From positions 2,766,309-2,830,308 of the forward strand of contig JAVKHP010000001.1 of assembly GCA_031459855.1 (NCBI GenBank): a stretch of DNA of 64,000 bases, read 5' to 3'. This document shows, piece after piece, positions 4,921-55,485 of the stretch; position 1 is the stretch's first letter; each line of letters begins with the position of its first letter. The notes under the pieces were generated by a model that had not been told where the DNA came from, made no database searches, and was given only the letters and a program-made list of their open reading frames with translations. This DNA is from Armatimonadota bacterium. Lineage in GTDB: Bacteria; Sysuimicrobiota; Sysuimicrobiia; Sysuimicrobiales; Humicultoraceae. The position numbers and the translations under genes are program-made.

Positions 4921-4946
4921 TTGCCCTGAACTCCTGCCGGCTAGAC
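4921..4946 (-). promoter_or_regulatory. SigB/SigF-type promoter of pilP-pilQ
   Basis: Minus strand GTCTAG (4941-4946), 14-nt spacer ending gagttca, GGGCAA (4921-4926). Both hexamers and the spacing are the same as before the sigma-factor gene (48653-48678). The transcript would have a leader of about 75 nt to ATG 4838. The rest of the gene-free stretch 4947-5168 holds only the repeats listed at 5033-5204. Confidence 0.65.
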
Positions 4947-38108: not shown

Positions 38109-38134
38109 CTGCCCAACTGCCGCACGCCCTAGAC
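38109..38134 (-). promoter_or_regulatory. SigB/SigF-type promoter of the major pilin
   Basis: Minus strand GTCTAG (38129-38134), 14-nt spacer ending cagtt, GGGCAG (38109-38114), in the 170-bp gap between pilC and the pilin. The leader is about 105 nt and ends in a strong Shine-Dalgarno (38008-38014). Confidence 0.6.
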
Positions 38135-44700: not shown

Positions 44701-44727
44701 GTCTTCGAAGCGGCCGCAGTTGGGCAT
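44701..44727 (+). promoter_or_regulatory. SigB/SigF-type promoter of the second pilB
   Basis: GTCTTC (44701-44706), 15-nt spacer ending cagtt, GGGCAT (44722-44727). ATG 44739 follows 11 nt after the -10 with no Shine-Dalgarno, so the transcript should be leaderless or nearly so. Confidence 0.55.
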
Positions 44728-44738
44728 ATCCTTTCGAG

Positions 44739-46979
<2,241 letters not shown>

Positions 46980-47135: not shown

Positions 47136-47492
47136 CTAGACCAGCGCGGCGGCCAGCTGGCTGTTGCGCCGCATCTCGAGCCGGATGCGTCCCAGGTTCG
47201 CCTGCTTGCCGCCCACGACGACCAGCATCGCGTCGGGGCCAGCCGGCCCGATGGCCACGGGGCCCTCGTCGAACTCCAGGAGCAGGTTCCGGATGGTGCC
47301 GCGGACCATCTCACGGCCCATGGAGTCGGCGGCGGCGATGTTGCTGGCCACGATGGCACCCACAGCCTCCAGGTCCACGCTCTCCTCGCTGGTCACGCCT
47401 TCGACCACGAACCCGTCCCGGCTGACCACGAGCGCCGCCAGCACCCCGTCGACCTTGGCCAGGTCGGCCAGCACGTCCTTGAGCTGCGACAT
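47136..47492 (-). CDS. Roadblock/LC7 domain protein (MglB-like)
   Basis: A 118-residue single-domain protein: MSQLKDVLADLAKVDGVLAALVVSRDGFVVEG, then AVGAIVASNIAAADSMGREMV and LLVVVGG-type strands, the Roadblock fold. Family members regulate small Ras-like GTPases such as MglA that control polarity and T4P motility; no MglA is in the window. ATG 47492 is preferred to ATG 47498 because GGAGG is 8 nt upstream. It is 65 bp after the sigma-factor gene, in the same transcript. Confidence 0.9.
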   Translation of the reverse strand: MSQLKDVLADLAKVDGVLAALVVSRDGFVVEGVTSEESVDLEAVGAIVASNIAAADSMGREMVRGTIRNLLLEFDEGPVAIGPAGPDAMLVVVGGKQANLGRIRLEMRRNSQLAAALV

Positions 47493-47557
47493 TCCCATAC
47501 CCTCCTTCGCAAACCTCCGGCAGACTGCGCTCCGGGGCGAGGTCAGTGCGTCGTGCG

Positions 47558-48397
47558 CTAGATCACCTCCGACGAGGCCATGCCCATCACACCCCGCAAC
47601 TTGGCCAGCGCCGAGGCCAGCACGCGCGAGACGTGCTTCTGCGAGATGCCGATGCGCTTCGCGGCCTCGGTCTGGGTCAGGTCCGTGAAGAACAGGTAGT
47701 AGAGCACCTTCTTCTGCAGGCTGTTCAGCGACTCCATCGCCTCCAGCAGCAGGACGCGGTCCTCGATGGGGAGCTGGAAGCTGACGTGGGTGCGATGACG
47801 GATGCGCTCCCGGTCGACGCGCAGCTCGCCGCTCTCCTCGTCGGCCTCCAGCGCGATGGTCCGCAGCGCCTCCCGGGTCCGCAGCACCTCCAGCAGGCCC
47901 TCCTCCTCGATGTTCAGCTCGGCGGCCAGCTCGTCGAGGCTGGGGAACCGACCTTCCTCGCTGATGTAGCGTCCGATGGTGTCCTCGATGCGGGCGTTGA
48001 CCTTCTGCAGCCACCGCGGCTTGCGGATCGTGTCACGCTGGTCGCGCAGGTAGTGGCGGATCTCGCCGCGGATCAGGTAGCTGGCGTACGTGGTGAACTT
48101 GGCCCCGCGGGTGGGATCGAAGGCCGCGATGGCGTTCAACAGCCCGAGGTAGCCGACCTGCACGATGTCCTCCGTGGGCACCCCGGAGAAGACGAACTCG
48201 GCGGCGATGCGCCGGACCAGCGGGGTGCAGGCCAGCACGACCCGCTCCCGGATGGCCGGGTCGCGGGTCCGTGCGTACTCCTGCATGAGCGCTTCCTCAT
48301 CGTCGTGGGTGCGCTGCGCCTGGTGTCCGGCGCCCGTGCGGTTCGCGCGGTGTGGCCGCGCTTCGGGTGTCGCATTCTCTCCGCTGCGCCCGCGCAT
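47558..48397 (-). CDS. Group 3 sigma-70 factor, SigB/SigF/SigG type
   Basis: A 279-residue sigma factor. After a basic 35-residue N-terminus come region 2 (EDIVQVGYLGLLNAIAAFDPTRGAKFTTYASYLIRGEIRHYLRDQRD), region 3 (ERRFPSLDELAAELNI-like helix-turn-helix) and region 4 (NSLQKKVLYYLFFTDLTQTEAAKRIGISQKHVSRVLASALAKL). Region 1.1 is absent, as in group 3 factors. ATG 48397 has GGGAGG 8 nt upstream, which fixes the start. Its transcript begins at a SigB-type promoter and carries a c-di-GMP-I riboswitch with terminator, so it appears autoregulated and ligand-controlled. No anti-sigma factor is adjacent. Confidence 0.93.
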   Translation of the reverse strand: MRGRSGENATPEARPHRANRTGAGHQAQRTHDDEEALMQEYARTRDPAIRERVVLACTPLVRRIAAEFVFSGVPTEDIVQVGYLGLLNAIAAFDPTRGAKFTTYASYLIRGEIRHYLRDQRDTIRKPRWLQKVNARIEDTIGRYISEEGRFPSLDELAAELNIEEEGLLEVLRTREALRTIALEADEESGELRVDRERIRHRTHVSFQLPIEDRVLLLEAMESLNSLQKKVLYYLFFTDLTQTEAAKRIGISQKHVSRVLASALAKLRGVMGMASSEVI

Positions 48398-48444
48398 CGT
48401 GCGGCCTCCCCGTGGCCTCTGGCCTCGTGCGGCACCCGTCCCCG

Positions 48445-48479
48445 AAAAACAGCAGACCCTCTTGGGACTGCCCAAGAGG
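48445..48479 (-). terminator. Riboswitch-associated intrinsic terminator
   Basis: On the minus strand CCTCTTGGG pairs perfectly with CCCAAGAGG over CAGT, and after GTCTGCTG comes TTTTT (48445-48449). It lies directly after the GEMM aptamer and just before the sigma-factor Shine-Dalgarno, the expected expression platform. Confidence 0.85.
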
Positions 48480-48483
48480 ATCT

Positions 48484-48568
48484 ACGGTGCATCCCTTCGG
48501 CAGCCCGGCCAACCCTCTAGGTCCCGTAGCTTTGCGCCCCCACCTTGCGGTGGGTTTGCCTTGTTCGG
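48484..48568 (-). ncRNA. Cyclic di-GMP-I (GEMM) riboswitch before the sigma factor
   Basis: Minus strand: GGCAAACCC, a hairpin with a GCAA tetraloop (CCACC-GCAA-GGTGG), then GGCGCAAAGC leading into the second stem, ending CTGCCGAAGGG. These are the conserved GEMM-I elements: the GGCAAACC strand, the GNRA tetraloop that docks into the second helix, and GCGCAAAGC. The direction matches the sigma-factor gene 87 nt further on. Whether c-di-GMP turns the gene on or off cannot be read from sequence with certainty. Confidence 0.9.
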
Positions 48569-48652
48569 GGATCGGTATGCACTTGTGGCGGACGGTCGCT
48601 GCACGCAGTACAGTCCGCCCAGAACATTGCCGCAAGCTCTCGGTAAAGAACT

Positions 48653-48678
48653 TTGCCCAGAACTCCGGACGGCTAGAC
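48653..48678 (-). promoter_or_regulatory. SigB/SigF-type promoter of the riboswitch-sigma factor operon
   Basis: Minus strand GTCTAG (48673-48678), 14-nt spacer ending gagttct, GGGCAA (48653-48658). Hexamers and spacing are identical to the pilP site. Transcription from about 48646 would reach the aptamer after about 80 nt; that interval contains a further hairpin (GGCGGAC/GTCCGCC). The sigma factor may thus activate its own gene. Confidence 0.65.
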
Positions 48679-48703: not shown

Positions 48704-49669
48704 TCAGCGCCGCGGCGCGCCCGCCGGTGGCCGCGCCCGGACGACGTAGCGGAACGCGAGCCGGCGCGCCACGAGCACGTCGAGCACGGCGGCGAGCTGC
48801 GTGCCGGGCAGCCCGCTGGCCGCGGCGACCTCGGCCAGGGTGCGCCCGCCGTCCAGGTATGGCAGCACCGCGAGCGGGTCGATCCCGGCTGCGGCGACGA
48901 TCTCGGCGCGCACGTCATCGGGCAGTGTGGCGTCGATACCGCGGGCGCGCAGGAAGCGCGCGTCCGGCGAGAAGCGACCGAACGTGGCCTCGCCGGGCGG
49001 CGCAGCGGGCGGCGGTGCCTCGGGCGCCACGGCGTCCGCAGACGGCGCGGCGGCGGCCGGCAGCACAGCGTCGTGCCCTGGCGCCGGTGGGTCCACGCTG
49101 GCGTGGCTTGGGACCTCCACGCCGGTCGCGCCGTCGGCCGGGGCGCCCGCGGGTACCGGGACCGGCGCGGCCTCTGGCGCGGGCGACGCGGCGGGCGTCT
49201 CCTGCCCCGGCGGGGGCGCCGGGGCACGCATGCGGCCCGCCAGGTGCACGATCCATCCTGCTGCGCGGTTGATCACAGCGTCCTCCGATGCGTCGGGGGC
49301 GGCGGGGTCGAAGGCGGTCACCGCGCCCTCGGCGATCACCAGGGCAGCGGGGTGCGCTCCGAGCACGAAGAGCACCGCGCTGCTCCCGTCGGCTTGCAGG
49401 CGCCGCACGAACCGCTCGAGGCGCACGAAATCGGTGTGCAGCGCGCCGCCGGCGAACTCCAGCTCCATGCACTGCGCCACCACGTCTTCGGGCAACGGTA
49501 GATGCGCCCGCGCCGCGCCCGGCGGCACGCTGGCCGCCGCCGAGCCGCCGGGCACGAGCTGCCAGCCCGCCGGCCCGAAGACGGCGCCGATGCCTGCTGC
49601 TGGAGTTTCGAATACCACCGCCAGGCCGCCCGGCCAGGTGTAGTGCGTGATACCCGCGCGACCGGTCAC
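48704..49669 (-). CDS. Unknown protein, second gene of the riboswitch-2 operon
   Basis: A 321-residue soluble protein with three parts: an N-terminal alpha/beta domain (about 1-150: GGLAVVFETPAAGIGAVFGPAGW, DGSSAVLFVLGAHPAALVIAEGAVTAFDP), a Pro/Ala linker (155-225), and a C-terminal helical domain (about 230-315: LAEVAAASGLPGTQLAAVLDVLVARRLAFRYV) that looks like a winged helix. I do not recognise a family; the N-terminal part recalls DUF4388/Roadblock-type sensory folds. It starts at GTG 49669, overlapping the upstream gene (GTGA). Confidence 0.7.
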   Translation of the reverse strand: MTGRAGITHYTWPGGLAVVFETPAAGIGAVFGPAGWQLVPGGSAAASVPPGAARAHLPLPEDVVAQCMELEFAGGALHTDFVRLERFVRRLQADGSSAVLFVLGAHPAALVIAEGAVTAFDPAAPDASEDAVINRAAGWIVHLAGRMRAPAPPPGQETPAASPAPEAAPVPVPAGAPADGATGVEVPSHASVDPPAPGHDAVLPAAAAPSADAVAPEAPPPAAPPGEATFGRFSPDARFLRARGIDATLPDDVRAEIVAAAGIDPLAVLPYLDGGRTLAEVAAASGLPGTQLAAVLDVLVARRLAFRYVVRARPPAGAPRR

Positions 49670-50439
49670 CGCCCCTCACCGGCGCCGCTGGTCTGCCGCA
49701 ACGCGTGTTCCGCCGCCGCGATCTGGGCATCGACGAAGCCCCGTCCCACCACGGCGACGATCGACGCGCAGGCGGTCTCGACGATGCGCCGCCACGTCGC
49801 CTCGGGGAGCGGCGGCGCCACGACCCGGCCGTCTTCGACGCGGCCGCCGTGCGGTGCCAGCGCCCGCTCGAGCGAGGCCAAGAACCGGCTGGCGAGCTTG
49901 CGACCCCGCAGACGCGCCAGCCGCTCGACGAAGAGACTCAGGATCTCGGGCCAGGGATGGGGAGGAGGTTCCATCGTGACCGTCGTGCCGGCGGGGACCG
50001 CACGGTTGCCACCCTGCGGCGGCATCCCCCCAGGTGCCGTACCCGTGCGCGCTGCCGCGGCCACGCGCTGCGCGGCGTCGGGCGTCTCCTCGGCCGCACG
50101 GTCGCCGGTCGCCGCCGGCCCGGCTGGCAGCGGCGGCAGGCCGACGACCACCGACAGCGTCCCGCCGCGCGACGCCACCTGGCGCAGGAGATCGCGTCCC
50201 GCCGCAGCCGGCAGCACGGCTTCGGTCCCCGTCGCCTCGAAGAACCACGACTCCTGCGGCGCGCCGTCGTGGATCCACAGCACGGCGTCCGTCTCCGGGT
50301 CGGCGATCGAGACGCCACCTTCGAAGCCGCGGGCCACCAGGTGCGCGATGAGCGCGTCGAGATCGACGGCGTCGGCGGGCACGCCGGCGATCAGAGCCGG
50401 GCCCGTGCGCGCGGTCTCCAGCGCGGTGCGACGATTCAC
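49666..50439 (-). CDS. Unknown protein, first gene of the riboswitch-2 operon
   Basis: A 257-residue soluble protein. The N-terminal 115 residues form an alpha/beta unit (LDALIAHLVARGFEGGVSIADPETDAVLWIHDG, then DLLRQVASRGGTLSVVVGLPP), resembling the N-terminal part of the next gene's product, so the two may be diverged relatives. A disordered linker and a helical C-terminal part (LSLFVERLARLRGRKLASRFLASLERAL, IVETACASIVAVVGRGFVDAQIAAAEHAL) follow. GTG 50439 has AGGAAGG 4-5 nt upstream. No known family. Control by c-di-GMP is inferred from the aptamer in its leader. Confidence 0.72.
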   Translation of the reverse strand: MNRRTALETARTGPALIAGVPADAVDLDALIAHLVARGFEGGVSIADPETDAVLWIHDGAPQESWFFEATGTEAVLPAAAGRDLLRQVASRGGTLSVVVGLPPLPAGPAATGDRAAEETPDAAQRVAAAARTGTAPGGMPPQGGNRAVPAGTTVTMEPPPHPWPEILSLFVERLARLRGRKLASRFLASLERALAPHGGRVEDGRVVAPPLPEATWRRIVETACASIVAVVGRGFVDAQIAAAEHALRQTSGAGEGR

Positions 50440-50500
50440 GGCCTGCCTTCCTGCGGGGGTGCGGTACGCGGACGCCGCACGATGCGGCGCGGGCTTCCAC

Positions 50501-50522
50501 CCTAGCGCGAACCTAGCGCGAA
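50501..50522. repeat. 11-bp perfect tandem duplication
   Basis: cctagcgcgaa occurs twice in a row just after the riboswitch-2 hairpin on the minus strand, about 60 nt before GTG 50439. Confidence 0.6.
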
Positions 50523-50549
50523 GGCCCTCCGGCCACAAGCCGAAGGGCC
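50523..50549 (-). terminator. Hairpin after riboswitch 2
   Basis: GGCCCTTCGGC pairs with GCCGGAGGGCC over a 5-nt loop, with one G-U pair, directly after the aptamer on the minus strand. There is no U-tract, so it may act with Rho or on translation rather than as a simple intrinsic terminator. Confidence 0.5.
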
Positions 50550-50552
50550 CAC

Positions 50553-50648
50553 CTGGCTCCTCTTCGGCAACCCGGCCGGCCGCACGGCACCCCGCGCGCC
50601 CCCGTCGGCTTTGCGCCCCCACCTCGCGATGGGTTTGCCCGTTCGGAG
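50553..50648 (-). ncRNA. Second cyclic di-GMP-I (GEMM) riboswitch
   Basis: Minus strand: GGGCAAACCC, hairpin CATC-GCGA-GGTG with a GNRA loop, GGCGCAAAGCC, a longer second stem (GACGGGGGCG...), then GGTTGCCGAAGAGG. The conserved positions are the same as in the aptamer at 48484-48568. It precedes the two-gene operon 50439-48704 by about 115 nt. Confidence 0.88.
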
Positions 50649-50695
50649 GTGACACGTACCGGCCCTCGCCGGCACGCGGATGTCCACTTCCCTGT

Positions 50696-50721
50696 GTACC
50701 CCGCGGCGGCTTCGCCTAGAC
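50696..50721 (-). promoter_or_regulatory. SigB/SigF-type promoter of the riboswitch-2 operon
   Basis: Minus strand GTCTAG (50716-50721), 14-nt spacer, GGGTAC (50696-50701), the copy closest to the Bacillus SigB -10 (GGGTAT). The transcript enters the aptamer about 40 nt later. It lies just after the transglycosylase gene on the same strand. Confidence 0.6.
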
Positions 50722-50768: not shown

Positions 50769-51734
50769 TCAGAGGGCGAGCAAGCGCCGGTAGAGGCTCG
50801 CGACGTTGAAGACGTACCAGCGGGTCTCGTCGTAGGGCGGAATGCCCTGGTAACGCTCGACCGCGCCGCGCCCCGCGTTGTACGCGGCAAGCGCCAGGTG
50901 CAGATTCTCCCACCCGAAGCGGTCGAGGTTGCCGCGCAGGTAGCGAATCGTCCCGTACAGGTTCTGCACGGGATCATCGGGGTCGACGCCGAGCGCCCGC
51001 GCCGTCTCGGGCATGAGCTGGCCCAGCCCGATGGCGCCGGCACGGGACCGCGCCCGCACCTGAAACCCCGACTCCACCGCCACCAGCGCCACCACCAGCC
51101 GCGGGTCGATGTTGAACACCCGGCTGTAGCCCAGCAGCGCCTCGCCGATGCGGCGCGCCTCCTCCAGCCCCAGACGGGGGTTGTAGTGGCGCGCGAACGC
51201 CTGGTACGTCGCGGCCTCGGTCACCCATCGGACGACGGGGCCGCGCATCGCTGCCTGCGGCAGCGGGCTGATGGCACGCAGGGCCTGCCGGGCCATGTCG
51301 TGGACCGCCGGGCTGGCGGGCAGCAGCAGTACCCGGCGGAACGCGATCTGGGCGACCTGGGGCCGACCGGCCTGCAGCTGCGCGTAGCCGAGCCACAGCA
51401 GCGCCGCTGCATCGCGCGGCTGCCGTCGCGTCACGTAGTCGAACGCCTGGACTGCCCCCTGCATGTCGCCCCGATGGTACCGGATCGCGCCAAGCCACAA
51501 CCACCCGTGCGGGTCCGCGGGCCGCGCCCGCAGTGCGCGGGTCACCGCACCCTCGGCGGCATCCAGACGGCCCGCGCGAAACAGGCGCGCGCCCTCCTGC
51601 AGCGCAGCAACGTGCGCTGTCGGCGCGGGTCGTCCGGCGACGGGGTCGAGGCCGGCGGCACGCGCCGGGGTCACCAGCCCGACGAGGACGACCAGCGCGA
51701 GGACCCCCGCGCCCGGTGTCCCGCGGAGCGTCAT
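50769..51734 (-). CDS. Exported TPR protein with lytic transglycosylase (SLT) domain
   Basis: A 321-residue periplasmic enzyme. Signal peptide ([16 protein letters not shown]), two or three TPR units (about 40-140), then the SLT domain (about 185-315): [18 protein letters not shown] with the catalytic Glu, [34 protein letters not shown] and [25 protein letters not shown]. It cleaves the glycan strands of peptidoglycan, plausibly to make room for the pilus machine. Its start overlaps the end of the second LC7 gene by 4 bp. Confidence 0.9.
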
Positions 51735-52090
51735 GCCAGCTGCTCCGTGATCTCGGCCTTGCGCCGGCGGATCTGCAACCGTGCGCGCGCGACGTTGCCG
51801 CCCGCGTCCAGCACCGTGGCGAGGTAGTGCTGCTGCCCCATGGCCACCACGAGCACCGACAGGCTGTCGGTGGTGAGCGTGATGAAGTCGAGTTCGCCGC
51901 CGTCCAGCTTGCGGATGCAGTAGGCCCCCACCTTCACCAGCGCCGCCAGGTCCGCGCTGACCCGCGTCAGGTCGGCGGCGCCGCCCTTGGTCACCGCCTC
52001 GACGACGTCGCCGTCCATGCTGAGCACTGCGGCTGCTCGCGTATCGTCGCCGACCAGCTCCTGCAGGATCCCGCGCAGCCTCGTGCCCAT
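51731..52090 (-). CDS. Second Roadblock/LC7 domain protein
   Basis: A 119-residue protein of the Roadblock fold: [73 protein letters not shown]. It resembles the LC7 protein at 47136 only in fold. Start is ATG 52090 without a Shine-Dalgarno, or GTG 52135. The only AT-rich stretch of the 112-bp divergent gap (52099-52112) lies immediately upstream and may be its -10 region. Confidence 0.85.
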
Positions 52091-52202
52091 GGTCCGACGT
52101 AAAAATTTACTATTCGCCGCCCTGTTCGCCGCCACCTGCGTGCTTCCTGCTCCGGAGAGGAGTCGTGCGTCCCTGGCACGTAGTACGCGGCAGGAGACCT
52201 CG

Positions 52203-53186
52203 ATGGCGGCTGCCGTCCTCGAACGCGTTCAGATCCACCGCCGGGAACTGGCGGCCCGCTGGGCGCAGCGGATCGCGGCCACGCCGGGCCTCGCTGCCTG
52301 GTGGCACGATCCTGAACGGCTCCAACGGCTGACCCTGGCAGGCATCGACGCGCTCTGCCAGGCGCTGATCGCCACCCGCCCCCAGCCGTTCGCCGAGTTC
52401 GCCGCCCGTCTGAGCCAGGAAGCCTTCGCCTTCGGGGTGCCGCTGCACGACGTCGTTCGGGTCGTGCTGGAGGTCAGGCCGGTGGTGCTGGCGTTCCTCG
52501 CCGAGGCACCCGCCGCGCCCGGCCCCGACCTGGAGATCCACCGGCAGCTGGACCAGGTCACGGCCGCAGCCGTGCTCGAGGGCATCCGGGGCCACGAACG
52601 GCAGCGCGACCGCCGGGCAGTGACCGTCCAGCGCCAGCTGGAAGAGCTGCGTGCGCGGCTGCGGCAGCAGGTGGTCATCGATCCGGCCACCGGCCTGTTC
52701 AACAGCACCTACTTCGGCATCATGCTGCGCCGTGAGGTCCGGCGCTGCCGGCGGTTCGACCGCGAGTTCACTGCGGCCCTGCTGGCCCTGGACCAGGAAG
52801 ACGAGATCCGGGACGCGTGGGGCGACGAGGGCCTGCGGCTGGTCGTCGTGCAGGTCGCGGAGACGTTGCGCCGCGTCACCCGGCAGGTGGACGTTCGCGC
52901 GGCCCTGGGCCCCGCCCGTTTCGGGTTGATCCTGCCGGAGACCTCCCTCGAGGGCGGCCTGATCGTGGCCGAACGCGTGCGCATGGCGGTCGAACAGCAT
53001 CCGTTCACCGTGCCCCAAGAACCGCTGCCGGTGACGCACACGGTGAGCATCGGGCTGGCCGCGTTTCCCCAGGACGCGGACGACGACCAGAGCCTGCTCC
53101 AGCGCCTGGAGGAGGCACTGGCGGTCGCCCGCGCCAGCCGCAACGCCACCGTGGCCGCGGCATCGGCACGGCACCTCCCCCTCTAG
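52203..53186 (+). CDS. Second degenerate GGDEF protein with helical N-terminal domain
   Basis: A 327-residue soluble protein with the same plan as the protein at 7038-8048: an all-helical N-terminal half (RRELAARWAQRIAATPGLAAWW, AAVLEGIRGHERQRDRRAV) and a C-terminal GGDEF-like fold (VIDPATGLFNSTYFGIMLRREVRRCRRF, THTVSIGLAAFPQDADDD). The active-site loop reads LGPARF instead of GGDEF and the metal-binding Asp position reads LALDQEDE, so catalysis is unlikely. ATG 52203 has AGGAG 7 nt upstream. It is divergent from the LC7-transglycosylase operon. Confidence 0.87.
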   Translation: MAAAVLERVQIHRRELAARWAQRIAATPGLAAWWHDPERLQRLTLAGIDALCQALIATRPQPFAEFAARLSQEAFAFGVPLHDVVRVVLEVRPVVLAFLAEAPAAPGPDLEIHRQLDQVTAAAVLEGIRGHERQRDRRAVTVQRQLEELRARLRQQVVIDPATGLFNSTYFGIMLRREVRRCRRFDREFTAALLALDQEDEIRDAWGDEGLRLVVVQVAETLRRVTRQVDVRAALGPARFGLILPETSLEGGLIVAERVRMAVEQHPFTVPQEPLPVTHTVSIGLAAFPQDADDDQSLLQRLEEALAVARASRNATVAAASARHLPL

Positions 53187-54799
53187 CGCTCGCGCCAGAG
53201 GCGCAGCTGCACCTCGAACGGCGGCTTGACCTGTAGCACGCGCAGGAACACCTCGACGAGGAACGGATCCAGCGCGCTCCCGGCCATCGCCCGCAGCTCG
53301 GCCATGGCCTCGTTGACCGTGCGCCCACGCCGGTAGGGGCGGTCGGAGATCAGCGCGTCGAAGGTGTCGGCGATGCGGATGATCCGCGCCCCCAGCGGGA
53401 TGGCCTCGCCCGCGAGCCCCTCGGGGTACCCGCTGCCGTCGTAGGCCTCCTGGTGGTAGCGCACGTAGTCCACCAGCGCCCGGAACGGTGCGAACTCCTG
53501 CAGGATCCCTGCCCCGCGCTCCGCGTGCAGGTTCATGATGACGCGCTCCTCGTCGGTGAGCGGGCCGCGCTTGCGCAGGATGTGTTCGGGCGTGCCGATC
53601 TTGCCGATGTCGTGCAGGAGGCTCGCCCAGCGGATGCGCTCGACCTCCTCCGGCGGCAGGCCCACCTCCTCGGCGATGGCCACCGCGCTGCTGGCCACCC
53701 GCTGGGAGTGGCCCCGGGTATACGGGTCTTTGGCCTCCAGGGCCGCCGCCAGCACGTTGACGGCACTCATGGTGAACTCGTGCGCCTGGACCTGCATCTG
53801 GGCGTCGCGCAGCCCCAGCGCGGCGGCAGCGAGCACCGTCTCAGTAGCCTCCACCTCGGGCTCGCTGAACAGCCGTACCTCGCGCCGCGCCAGGAGCACC
53901 GCCCCGAAGGTCTGGCCGCCGCTGCGCAAGGGAAACAGCACGGCCGACCCCATCCGGCCGCGTCCGAACACGGCCGCCCACTGCGGGTCGGTCGCTGCGT
54001 CCACCGCGGTACGCGGCAGACCGGACTGCAGGACCTCTTCCAGCACGGCCGTGCGCGGCAGGACCTCCCCACGTCGCCACGCCTCCTGCGGGTCCACGGT
54101 GGCTGTGACCACGGCGCGCTGCTCTACGTCGAGCACGATCACCACGCCGACGTCGGCGCCGGCCAGCCGCACGAGCCGTTCGAGCACGCGCCGCGCCCGG
54201 TCCGCGAGCGCCAGGCCCGCCATCGCGTCCACCACCGCCTGCAGTTCGGCTGCCACACGCGCGCGCCGCGCGAGCTCCTCGGCCCCGCGCAGGGCGGCCG
54301 TCATGGCATCGGCACGACGCTGCTCGAGGACCCCGACGAGCAGTCCGAGCAAGGCCAGGAGCGCTGTCCGGGACAGCGCCTCGAGGGTCGGCGCCTGGCG
54401 AAGGCCAACGGCGAGAGCGTACCCCAGCGCCGCCACCCACCCGCCAATGACGCCGGCCAGCAGCCCGCGCCCGGCCGTGCCCCAGATGAGCACGGGCACA
54501 TAGAACACGTAGAAGAGGCTGCCCGTTCCGCCCGTCACGTACACCAACAGGGTGACGATCAAGAGTTCCAGGGCCGTGCCAGCGTAGGCCGCGACCCGGT
54601 GGGTCCCGCGCGATGTCTCCTCCCGCACGCTCAGGATCCCGGCGGGTACCAGCAGCAGCACCAGGGGGATGGCCACCAGAGGCACCGGACGGTCTGGAGG
54701 CGCGCCGACCACGAGCATCGCGACGCCGAAGAGTGCCACAAGCCCTCGAAGGTAGAGGGCCCACCAGTCGAAGCCACCGCGAGGCAGGACCGTTCGCAT
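53183..54799 (-). CDS. Membrane HD-GYP phosphodiesterase with GAF domain
   Basis: A 538-residue c-di-GMP phosphodiesterase. Five or six N-terminal membrane helices (about 10-150), a GAF domain (about 195-335), then HD-GYP (about 350-520): RGHSQRVASSAVAIAEEVGLP, LLHDIGKIGTPEHIL, VIMNLHAERGAGIL, VRYHQEAYDGSGYPEGLAGEAIPLGARIIRIADTFDAL. HD and GYP signatures are intact, so it is probably active and lowers c-di-GMP. It has its own SigB-type promoter and converges with the degenerate GGDEF gene (4-bp overlap). Confidence 0.92.
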   Translation of the reverse strand: MRTVLPRGGFDWWALYLRGLVALFGVAMLVVGAPPDRPVPLVAIPLVLLLVPAGILSVREETSRGTHRVAAYAGTALELLIVTLLVYVTGGTGSLFYVFYVPVLIWGTAGRGLLAGVIGGWVAALGYALAVGLRQAPTLEALSRTALLALLGLLVGVLEQRRADAMTAALRGAEELARRARVAAELQAVVDAMAGLALADRARRVLERLVRLAGADVGVVIVLDVEQRAVVTATVDPQEAWRRGEVLPRTAVLEEVLQSGLPRTAVDAATDPQWAAVFGRGRMGSAVLFPLRSGGQTFGAVLLARREVRLFSEPEVEATETVLAAAALGLRDAQMQVQAHEFTMSAVNVLAAALEAKDPYTRGHSQRVASSAVAIAEEVGLPPEEVERIRWASLLHDIGKIGTPEHILRKRGPLTDEERVIMNLHAERGAGILQEFAPFRALVDYVRYHQEAYDGSGYPEGLAGEAIPLGARIIRIADTFDALISDRPYRRGRTVNEAMAELRAMAGSALDPFLVEVFLRVLQVKPPFEVQLRLWRER

Positions 54800-54845
54800 C
54801 GACACGCGCGCCGGCCCCCGACCGGGCCGCGGGCGCAGAGAGGTT

Positions 54846-54871
54846 ATGCCCGGTGGTCGTGATGGTCAGAC
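54846..54871 (-). promoter_or_regulatory. SigB/SigF-type promoter of the HD-GYP gene
   Basis: Minus strand GTCTGA (54866-54871), 14-nt spacer, GGGCAT (54846-54851), in the 155-bp gap between yqeG and the HD-GYP gene. A second GTCTAG overlaps further upstream but has no partner -10. Confidence 0.6.
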
Positions 54872-54954
54872 GTCTAGACCCACGAGTTCGACGTGGCCAA
54901 TAGCTTGTGCCCTGCGGTCGTGCGGGTCAGACACGGCAAGCCCCGCGGTCGGGG

Positions 54955-55485
54955 TCAGCCCTCGGAGGCGGGACTGAGCAGGCCCCGCGCGGCCAGCGCC
55001 GCCAGCACCCGCCGCTCGAGCGCGCGCACGAGGCGCACGCGCCACGGCTCGCGCGGGCTGAGCGGTGCCACCAGGATCGTGGGCACCCCAAGGCGGTTGC
55101 CCGCCAGCACGTCGGTGAAGAGCTGGTCGCCCACCATGGCCGTGCGCGCCGGCGCGGTGCCCATGATGGCCAGGGCGCGGCGCAGCTTGGCGGCGCTGGG
55201 CTTGAACCGCCCTGCGGCCACGGGCAGGCCCAGCAGACGGGCAGCGCGCCGGACGCGGCCCGAGAGGCTGTTGGACACCAGGCAGGCGGCGATCCCCGCC
55301 TGCCGCAACGTCGCCAGCCAGGCCACCACGTCGGGCGGAGGTGCGTCTGCGCCCCACGGGACCAGGGTGTTGTCGAGATCGAGCATCACCGCGTCGATGC
55401 CCCACGCCCGTAGCAGGGCCGGTGACAGGGCTGCGACACCCGAGACGCGGTGCCGGGGCGCCAGCAGGCGCCACAGCCGGCTCAC
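54955..55485 (-). CDS. YqeG-family HAD phosphatase
   Basis: A 176-residue HAD hydrolase: motif I VMLDLDNTLVPWGADAPP (DxDxT), motif II LVSNSLSG, motif III lysine in FKPSAAKL, motif IV MVGDQLFTDVLAGNRLGVPTILV. The YqeG family is typical of Firmicutes and Cyanobacteria; the substrate is unknown. GTG 55485 overlaps the mltG stop (GTGA). Confidence 0.92.
   Translation of the reverse strand: MSRLWRLLAPRHRVSGVAALSPALLRAWGIDAVMLDLDNTLVPWGADAPPPDVVAWLATLRQAGIAACLVSNSLSGRVRRAARLLGLPVAAGRFKPSAAKLRRALAIMGTAPARTAMVGDQLFTDVLAGNRLGVPTILVAPLSPREPWRVRLVRALERRVLAALAARGLLSPASEG

Follow-up and report, generated by a model that had tools for sequence, protein, structure and literature searches.

In a 64,000-nucleotide stretch of DNA (the window), a gene for a predicted c-di-GMP phosphodiesterase of the HD-GYP type lies about 5 kb from the gene of an alternative sigma factor, and we lean slightly towards the view that the two form a self-reinforcing loop that would hold c-di-GMP low. 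The protein domains, the promoter motif and its conservation, the riboswitch and its conservation and the complementarity within the leader RNA were computed directly; the specificity of the sigma factor for the motif, the polarity of the switch and the activity of the enzyme are what we infer. A preliminary description had proposed negative feedback. That sign is unsupported, because the leaders of the sigma gene have the layout of an OFF switch, so that the phosphodiesterase would reinforce the low-c-di-GMP state.

The HD-GYP gene and the promoter-like sites before it are:
53183–54805, minus strand: gene for the HD-GYP protein, 540 amino acids (ORF, Pfam, hydrophobicity, AlphaFold model)
54847–54871, minus strand: proximal SigB-like site P1, GTCTGA-N14-GGGCAT (motif scan, repeat, conservation)
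54908–54932, minus strand: distal SigB-like site P2, GTCTGA-N14-GGGCAC, in the second copy of a 31-nt repeat (motif scan, conservation)

The interval 53183–54871 comprises the HD-GYP open reading frame, which could start at a GTG (54805) or an ATG (54799), and the upstream DNA to 54871. The encoded protein carries an HD_5 domain at residues 371–534 in the numbering of the 560-amino-acid open frame (E = 2.5e-43; 148.2 bits, above the Pfam cut-off of 27.2), a GAF_2 domain (Pfam, E = 5.3e-11) and, before about residue 160, five main hydrophobic segments that resemble transmembrane segments. An AlphaFold model, with a mean pLDDT of 76 and a weak membrane portion, places N-terminal helices first, then GAF, then HD-GYP. 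Its best PDB match (4mcw; fold match E = 1e-14) is PmGH, a GAF/HD-GYP phosphodiesterase of Persephonella marina with the same order of these two domains. The gene product is probably a membrane-anchored GAF/HD-GYP c-di-GMP phosphodiesterase.

The 3′ end of the gene abuts a convergent gene at 51987–53186 (plus strand) for a degenerate GGDEF protein, which has GPARF at the active site, keeps an I-site-like RxxD and is a candidate c-di-GMP receptor; this gene is conserved beside the HD-GYP gene in G002, G006, G008, G009 and G010. On the other side, a same-strand gene that is HAD-like by reading of its translation ends at 54955, leaving a gap of about 150 bp; a family search of its product gave no match. 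Two Roadblock/LC7 proteins are encoded at 47136–47561 and 51731–52135 (minus strand), between or beside the sigma and HD-GYP genes.

The preliminary description had called the enzyme intact, with membrane and GAF domains. The domains, the HD and GYP motifs (LLHDIG and DGSGYP) and most metal ligands bear this out; the HHE metal-binding motif does not, as it reads HQE, with Q452 in place of the second histidine. Residues H366, H398, D399, H427, H451 and D480 are kept. Q452 is invariant across all ten aligned sequences of the clade, including the GGDEF-linked frames of G005 and G006, and HHE is found in 24 of 26 other HD-GYP rows, the two exceptions (L112 and L113) belonging to the same clade as the window's protein. 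Compared with PmGH, the window's protein adds the membrane segments and aligns Q452 with H277 and Y362 with E185 of PmGH, positions with metal roles.

These substitutions bear on whether the HD-GYP protein, although in the regulon, is a weak or inactive enzyme that senses c-di-GMP or serves as a trigger protein and closes no metabolic feedback. Such a role would suit the invariant glutamine, and DvhD (9rbz), a degenerate HD-GYP protein bound to c-di-GMP, is among the structures closest to the model. We nevertheless consider it unlikely, as H366, H398, D399, H427, H451 and D480 are retained together with GYP, some clade members (in G005 and G006) are joined to GGDEF domains within a single open frame, which fits turnover, and a canonical HHE protein stands at the same motif in G001 and G007. 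Activity in c-di-GMP hydrolysis is therefore predicted as likely but not certain.

Promoters of the SigB type have a GTTT-like −35 element, a spacer of about 12–15 nt and a GGGWA-like −10 element. The sites before the HD-GYP gene, GTCTGA-N14-GGGCAY, represent a GTCT variant of this type by both enrichment and conservation. P1 and P2 sit in the gap behind the HAD-like gene, within direct repeats of 31 nt that are 81% identical and 61 bp apart, and matches of their type number two in the window against 0.14 expected, a count that 1 of 100 shuffles reached. The broad pattern GTYTRNN{13,15}GGGCA was dropped as evidence (46 occurrences in the genome against 50 in the control), and motif evidence is limited to the tight GGGYAYAA form and to conservation. 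Allowing at most one mismatch, GTCT-N16-GGGYAYAA occurs 25 times in the window's own genome against 2 for the reversed pattern. Across the 61 genomes scanned, counts of GTCT-N16/17-GGGYAYA against its reverse were 131 to 33 in the GTDB family (11 genomes), 178 to 83 in family f7 and 60 to 32 in family f2; 18 distant genomes gave 62 to 90.

The motif precedes the HD-GYP orthologue in all seven family genomes with a readable 5′ end (G000, G002, G004, G005, G006, G008 and G009), with N15 spacing in G006 and with G009 read from a separate contig; the 5′ end of the G010 orthologue is cut by a contig end. Among 26 non-orthologous HD-GYP rows the exact motif occurs at two, a pair of closely related genes in G001 and G007. 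A search of these two genomes found no copy of the window's HD-GYP gene, and the motif there stands immediately before the probable ATG of a different membrane HD-GYP gene, a substitution spotted post hoc on inspecting the 26 rows. The upstream HAD-like gene may contribute to the conservation of GTCTGA through its stop codon (by eye, several orthologues read GTC TGA), which would account for the TGA and not for the downstream GGGYAYA. Taken with the enrichment, conservation in seven of seven orthologues makes it very probable that a sigma factor reading GTCT-N16/17-GGGYA has the HD-GYP gene in its regulon. The gene had been placed beforehand in a putative sigma regulon, behind one SigB-type promoter like that of the sigma factor itself; the placement holds up, with two sites found rather than one and a related site before the sigma gene.

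The sigma gene and its leader comprise the following features:
47558–48475, minus strand: SigB/SigF/SigG-like sigma factor, longest frame (domain and subfamily profiles)
48441–48485, minus strand: intrinsic terminator, 48452–48485 with a U tract (folding; 5′ arm and loop complementary to the aptamer 3′ strand)
48495–48569, minus strand: c-di-GMP-I-GGC riboswitch aptamer (Rfam, 71.4 bits against a gathering threshold of 59)
48607–48635, minus strand: sigma-A-like promoter, TTGCGG-N17-TGTACT (read by eye)
48654–48678, minus strand: SigB-like site upstream of the riboswitch, GTCTAG-N14-GGGCAA (motif scan)

The best subfamily of the sigma factor is TIGR02980 (SigB/SigF/SigG), at 176.9 bits against a cut-off of 234.35, which marks it as related and below membership; the true start of the gene is probably further in than that of the longest frame. 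The named relatives of the gene that were found are all metagenome-assembled Armatimonadota, including 'Armatimonadetes bacterium CSP1-3'. The SigB-like site before the riboswitch makes autoregulation of the sigma gene possible; among ten family genomes, only G000 and G006 have the exact GTCT form. A sigma-A-like promoter (TTGCGN-N17-TATGAT-like, by eye) is present in six of ten family sigma leaders, from genera g1, g3 and g7.

The window's own genome also encodes two paralogues of the sigma factor, with 55% and 50% identity. Together with the scarcity of the exact GTCT site before the sigma gene itself, they would suit a motif that is read by, or shared among, paralogous sigma factors, with the HD-GYP gene activated mainly by a factor other than the riboswitch-gated one. 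This arrangement seems improbable: G004 and G005 (the latter 69% complete) have no factor above 40% identity other than the gated one, and the motif nevertheless precedes the HD-GYP gene in both. Indeed, G004 (96% complete) has the window's sigma factor and a single distant homologue (35%), yet its motif count is 17 versus 1.

The leader aptamer is identified as c-di-GMP-I (RF03167/RF01051), and a riboswitch of this class lies directly upstream of the sigma gene in all ten family orthologues. Beyond the family, 28 further members of the order had a sigma match; loci were available for 20 of these, and in 14 of the 20 the scan placed the riboswitch immediately before the sigma gene. An initial scan covered 20 of 30 sigma loci (all 10 of the family and 10 of the 20 others); L093, where the riboswitch lies 1.4 kb upstream, does not count there as directly upstream. 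These counts lend good support to the proposal, made in the preliminary description as a condition, that c-di-GMP gates the sigma factor, which very likely occurs through this riboswitch.

In all ten family leaders, which are related and thus non-independent samples, the aptamer ends in bases (CUGCCGAAG or variants) complementary to both the 5′ arm and the loop of the terminator, of which the family has two different sequences, a GGGGCAGCCC type and a CGGUGGC type. Duplexes between the aptamer 3′ strand and the terminator have energies of −18 to −25 kcal/mol, and between 0 and 16 of 300 shuffles per leader matched the complementarity. According to PMC9262584, the aptamer and terminator of the Cd1 OFF switch coexist and compete with an antiterminator, whereas in the pilM ON switch aptamer and terminator are mutually exclusive. 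All ten leaders have the Cd1-type layout, in which aptamer and terminator coexist and the antiterminator uses the aptamer 3′ strand. Since this layout is like that of Cd1 and unlike that of pilM, the sigma leader should be an OFF switch, by which c-di-GMP shuts the sigma gene off. Minimum-energy folding was dropped as proof of polarity on its own, because the terminator forms without ligand in most family leaders; for that reason OFF logic needs co-transcriptional kinetics.

An ON riboswitch, by which c-di-GMP would induce the sigma factor and the phosphodiesterase would close a negative feedback loop, agrees with a c-di-GMP-gated sigma gene and a motif-bearing phosphodiesterase gene and has a precedent in pilM, an ON-type relative of this aptamer (PMC9262584), but is quite unlikely here, because the sigma terminator contains no aptamer base, so that the two can coexist where those of pilM exclude each other, and because the aptamer 3′ strand is the sole conserved competitor of the terminator found in the leaders. 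Reading the sign of the loop from the phosphodiesterase alone was rejected, as negative feedback requires an ON riboswitch and the leaders look OFF.

The motif also extends to other genes, two examples of which lie in the window:
50563–50649, minus strand: second c-di-GMP-I riboswitch of the window (Rfam), with GTCTAG-N14-GGGTAC at 50697–50721
44701–44728, plus strand: motif with N15 spacing just before the probable pilB start (motif scan)

There are 69 c-di-GMP-I riboswitches in the 11 family genomes, and the exact motif GTCT-N16/17-GGGYA lies within 150 nt upstream of 28 of the 68 that have 150 nt of upstream sequence and is absent before the other 40. At the same 68 riboswitches the reversed pattern occurs 0 times, the antisense pattern once, and 500 dinucleotide shuffles gave a mean of 0.17 and a maximum of 2. 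The 26 riboswitch-linked sites with N14 spacing are biased at unselected positions too, with A at position 5 in 21 and at position 27 in 17. Five of the seven riboswitches of the window's own genome have the exact motif, the sixth has GACT-N16-GGGCA and the seventh is sigma-70-like (by eye). A c-di-GMP-I riboswitch without the motif at G000:C1:648951-649033 (L042) has a sigma-70-like promoter, and the frame downstream resembles a Fur-like regulator (by eye).

The second riboswitch of the window and its SigB-like site both stand over a protein gene at 49669–50655 (minus strand) whose product had no match in Pfam and NCBIfam searches. The pilB gene (44739–46979, plus strand) encodes MshEN and T2SSE ATPase domains. 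Further sites of the form GTCTAG-N14-GGGCA lie at 4922–4946 and 38110–38134 (minus strand). Besides pilB, the motif or a one-mismatch form is found at genes for a receiver-GGDEF cyclase, a LuxR-type regulator, a UDP-glucose dehydrogenase-like protein, a histidine kinase, pseudopilins and a LysM-NlpC/P60 protein, putative targets that together suggest a programme for surface, pilus and matrix functions.

The receiver-GGDEF cyclase gene (G000:C1:1562475-1563554; L047, L292) carries the exact motif upstream, 28 nt from its ATG, and its GGEEF is intact. Its four closest homologues carry the motif, exact in G000 and G004 and with GACT in G005 and G006; seven more distant rows, one of them cut at a contig start, do not. 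The cyclase homologues of G005 and G006 lie in a single open frame together with an HD-GYP of the HQE type. Because a diguanylate cyclase also stands under the motif, the phosphodiesterase by itself does not give the net sign of the loop.

An OFF leader and a phosphodiesterase in the regulon would together make a double-negative, self-reinforcing loop. If this model is correct, the SigB-like promoters of the HD-GYP gene would be transcribed by the sigma factor encoded nearby. With c-di-GMP bound, the aptamer 3′ strand would be locked and the terminator would form in the sigma leader; with c-di-GMP absent, this strand would open the terminator and the sigma gene would be read. Low c-di-GMP would then yield sigma factor, sigma factor would yield phosphodiesterase, and c-di-GMP would fall still lower, the membrane and GAF sensor of the HD-GYP protein tuning the loop.

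Parts of this arrangement resemble known systems. In Clostridioides difficile, a c-di-GMP-I riboswitch (Cd1) in the leader of the flgB operon, which includes sigD, likewise acts as an OFF switch by termination and lowers the output of an alternative sigma factor (PMC5386303; PMC9262584); sigD lies downstream of a flagellar operon leader, whereas here the riboswitch is directly before a SigB/SigF/SigG-like sigma gene, and here many putative targets have a c-di-GMP riboswitch of their own and a phosphodiesterase gene bears the motif. In Streptomyces, c-di-GMP restrains an alternative sigma factor through WhiG–RsiG and the phosphodiesterase RmdB relieves the restraint, by a protein anti-sigma mechanism and an EAL enzyme in place of the RNA switch and HD-GYP enzyme proposed here (PMC13232838). 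In Bdellovibrio, the attack-phase programme likewise combines the regulon of an alternative sigma factor, FliA, with a c-di-GMP riboswitch RNA; that RNA, merRNA, has been proposed not to regulate any gene, and the portion seen reports no riboswitch before a sigma gene (PMC3627812). In the open-licence literature we found neither an earlier description of a SigB/F/G-like sigma gene immediately preceded by a c-di-GMP riboswitch nor one of this HD-GYP loop.

More tentatively, and with rather less confidence than in the loop itself, we suggest a lineage-wide circuit with two RNA layers in CSP1-3-type bacteria. In such a circuit, an OFF riboswitch would gate the sigma factor, and its putative targets (pilus, polysaccharide and signalling genes) would often have their own c-di-GMP riboswitch. 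Both a phosphodiesterase and a diguanylate cyclase would be transcribed, giving a self-reinforcing and possibly bistable decision between low and high c-di-GMP, and unrelated HD-GYP genes would occupy the phosphodiesterase slot in different genera. If this is true, a single second messenger acts through one RNA switch on a sigma factor and through others on many of that factor's putative targets, and is consumed in turn by a product of the regulon that it controls. This would make the sigma factor a candidate for a global regulator by c-di-GMP in a lineage in which all the named members that we found are metagenome-assembled genomes, and the bistability of c-di-GMP decisions would become testable on short, defined pieces of DNA.
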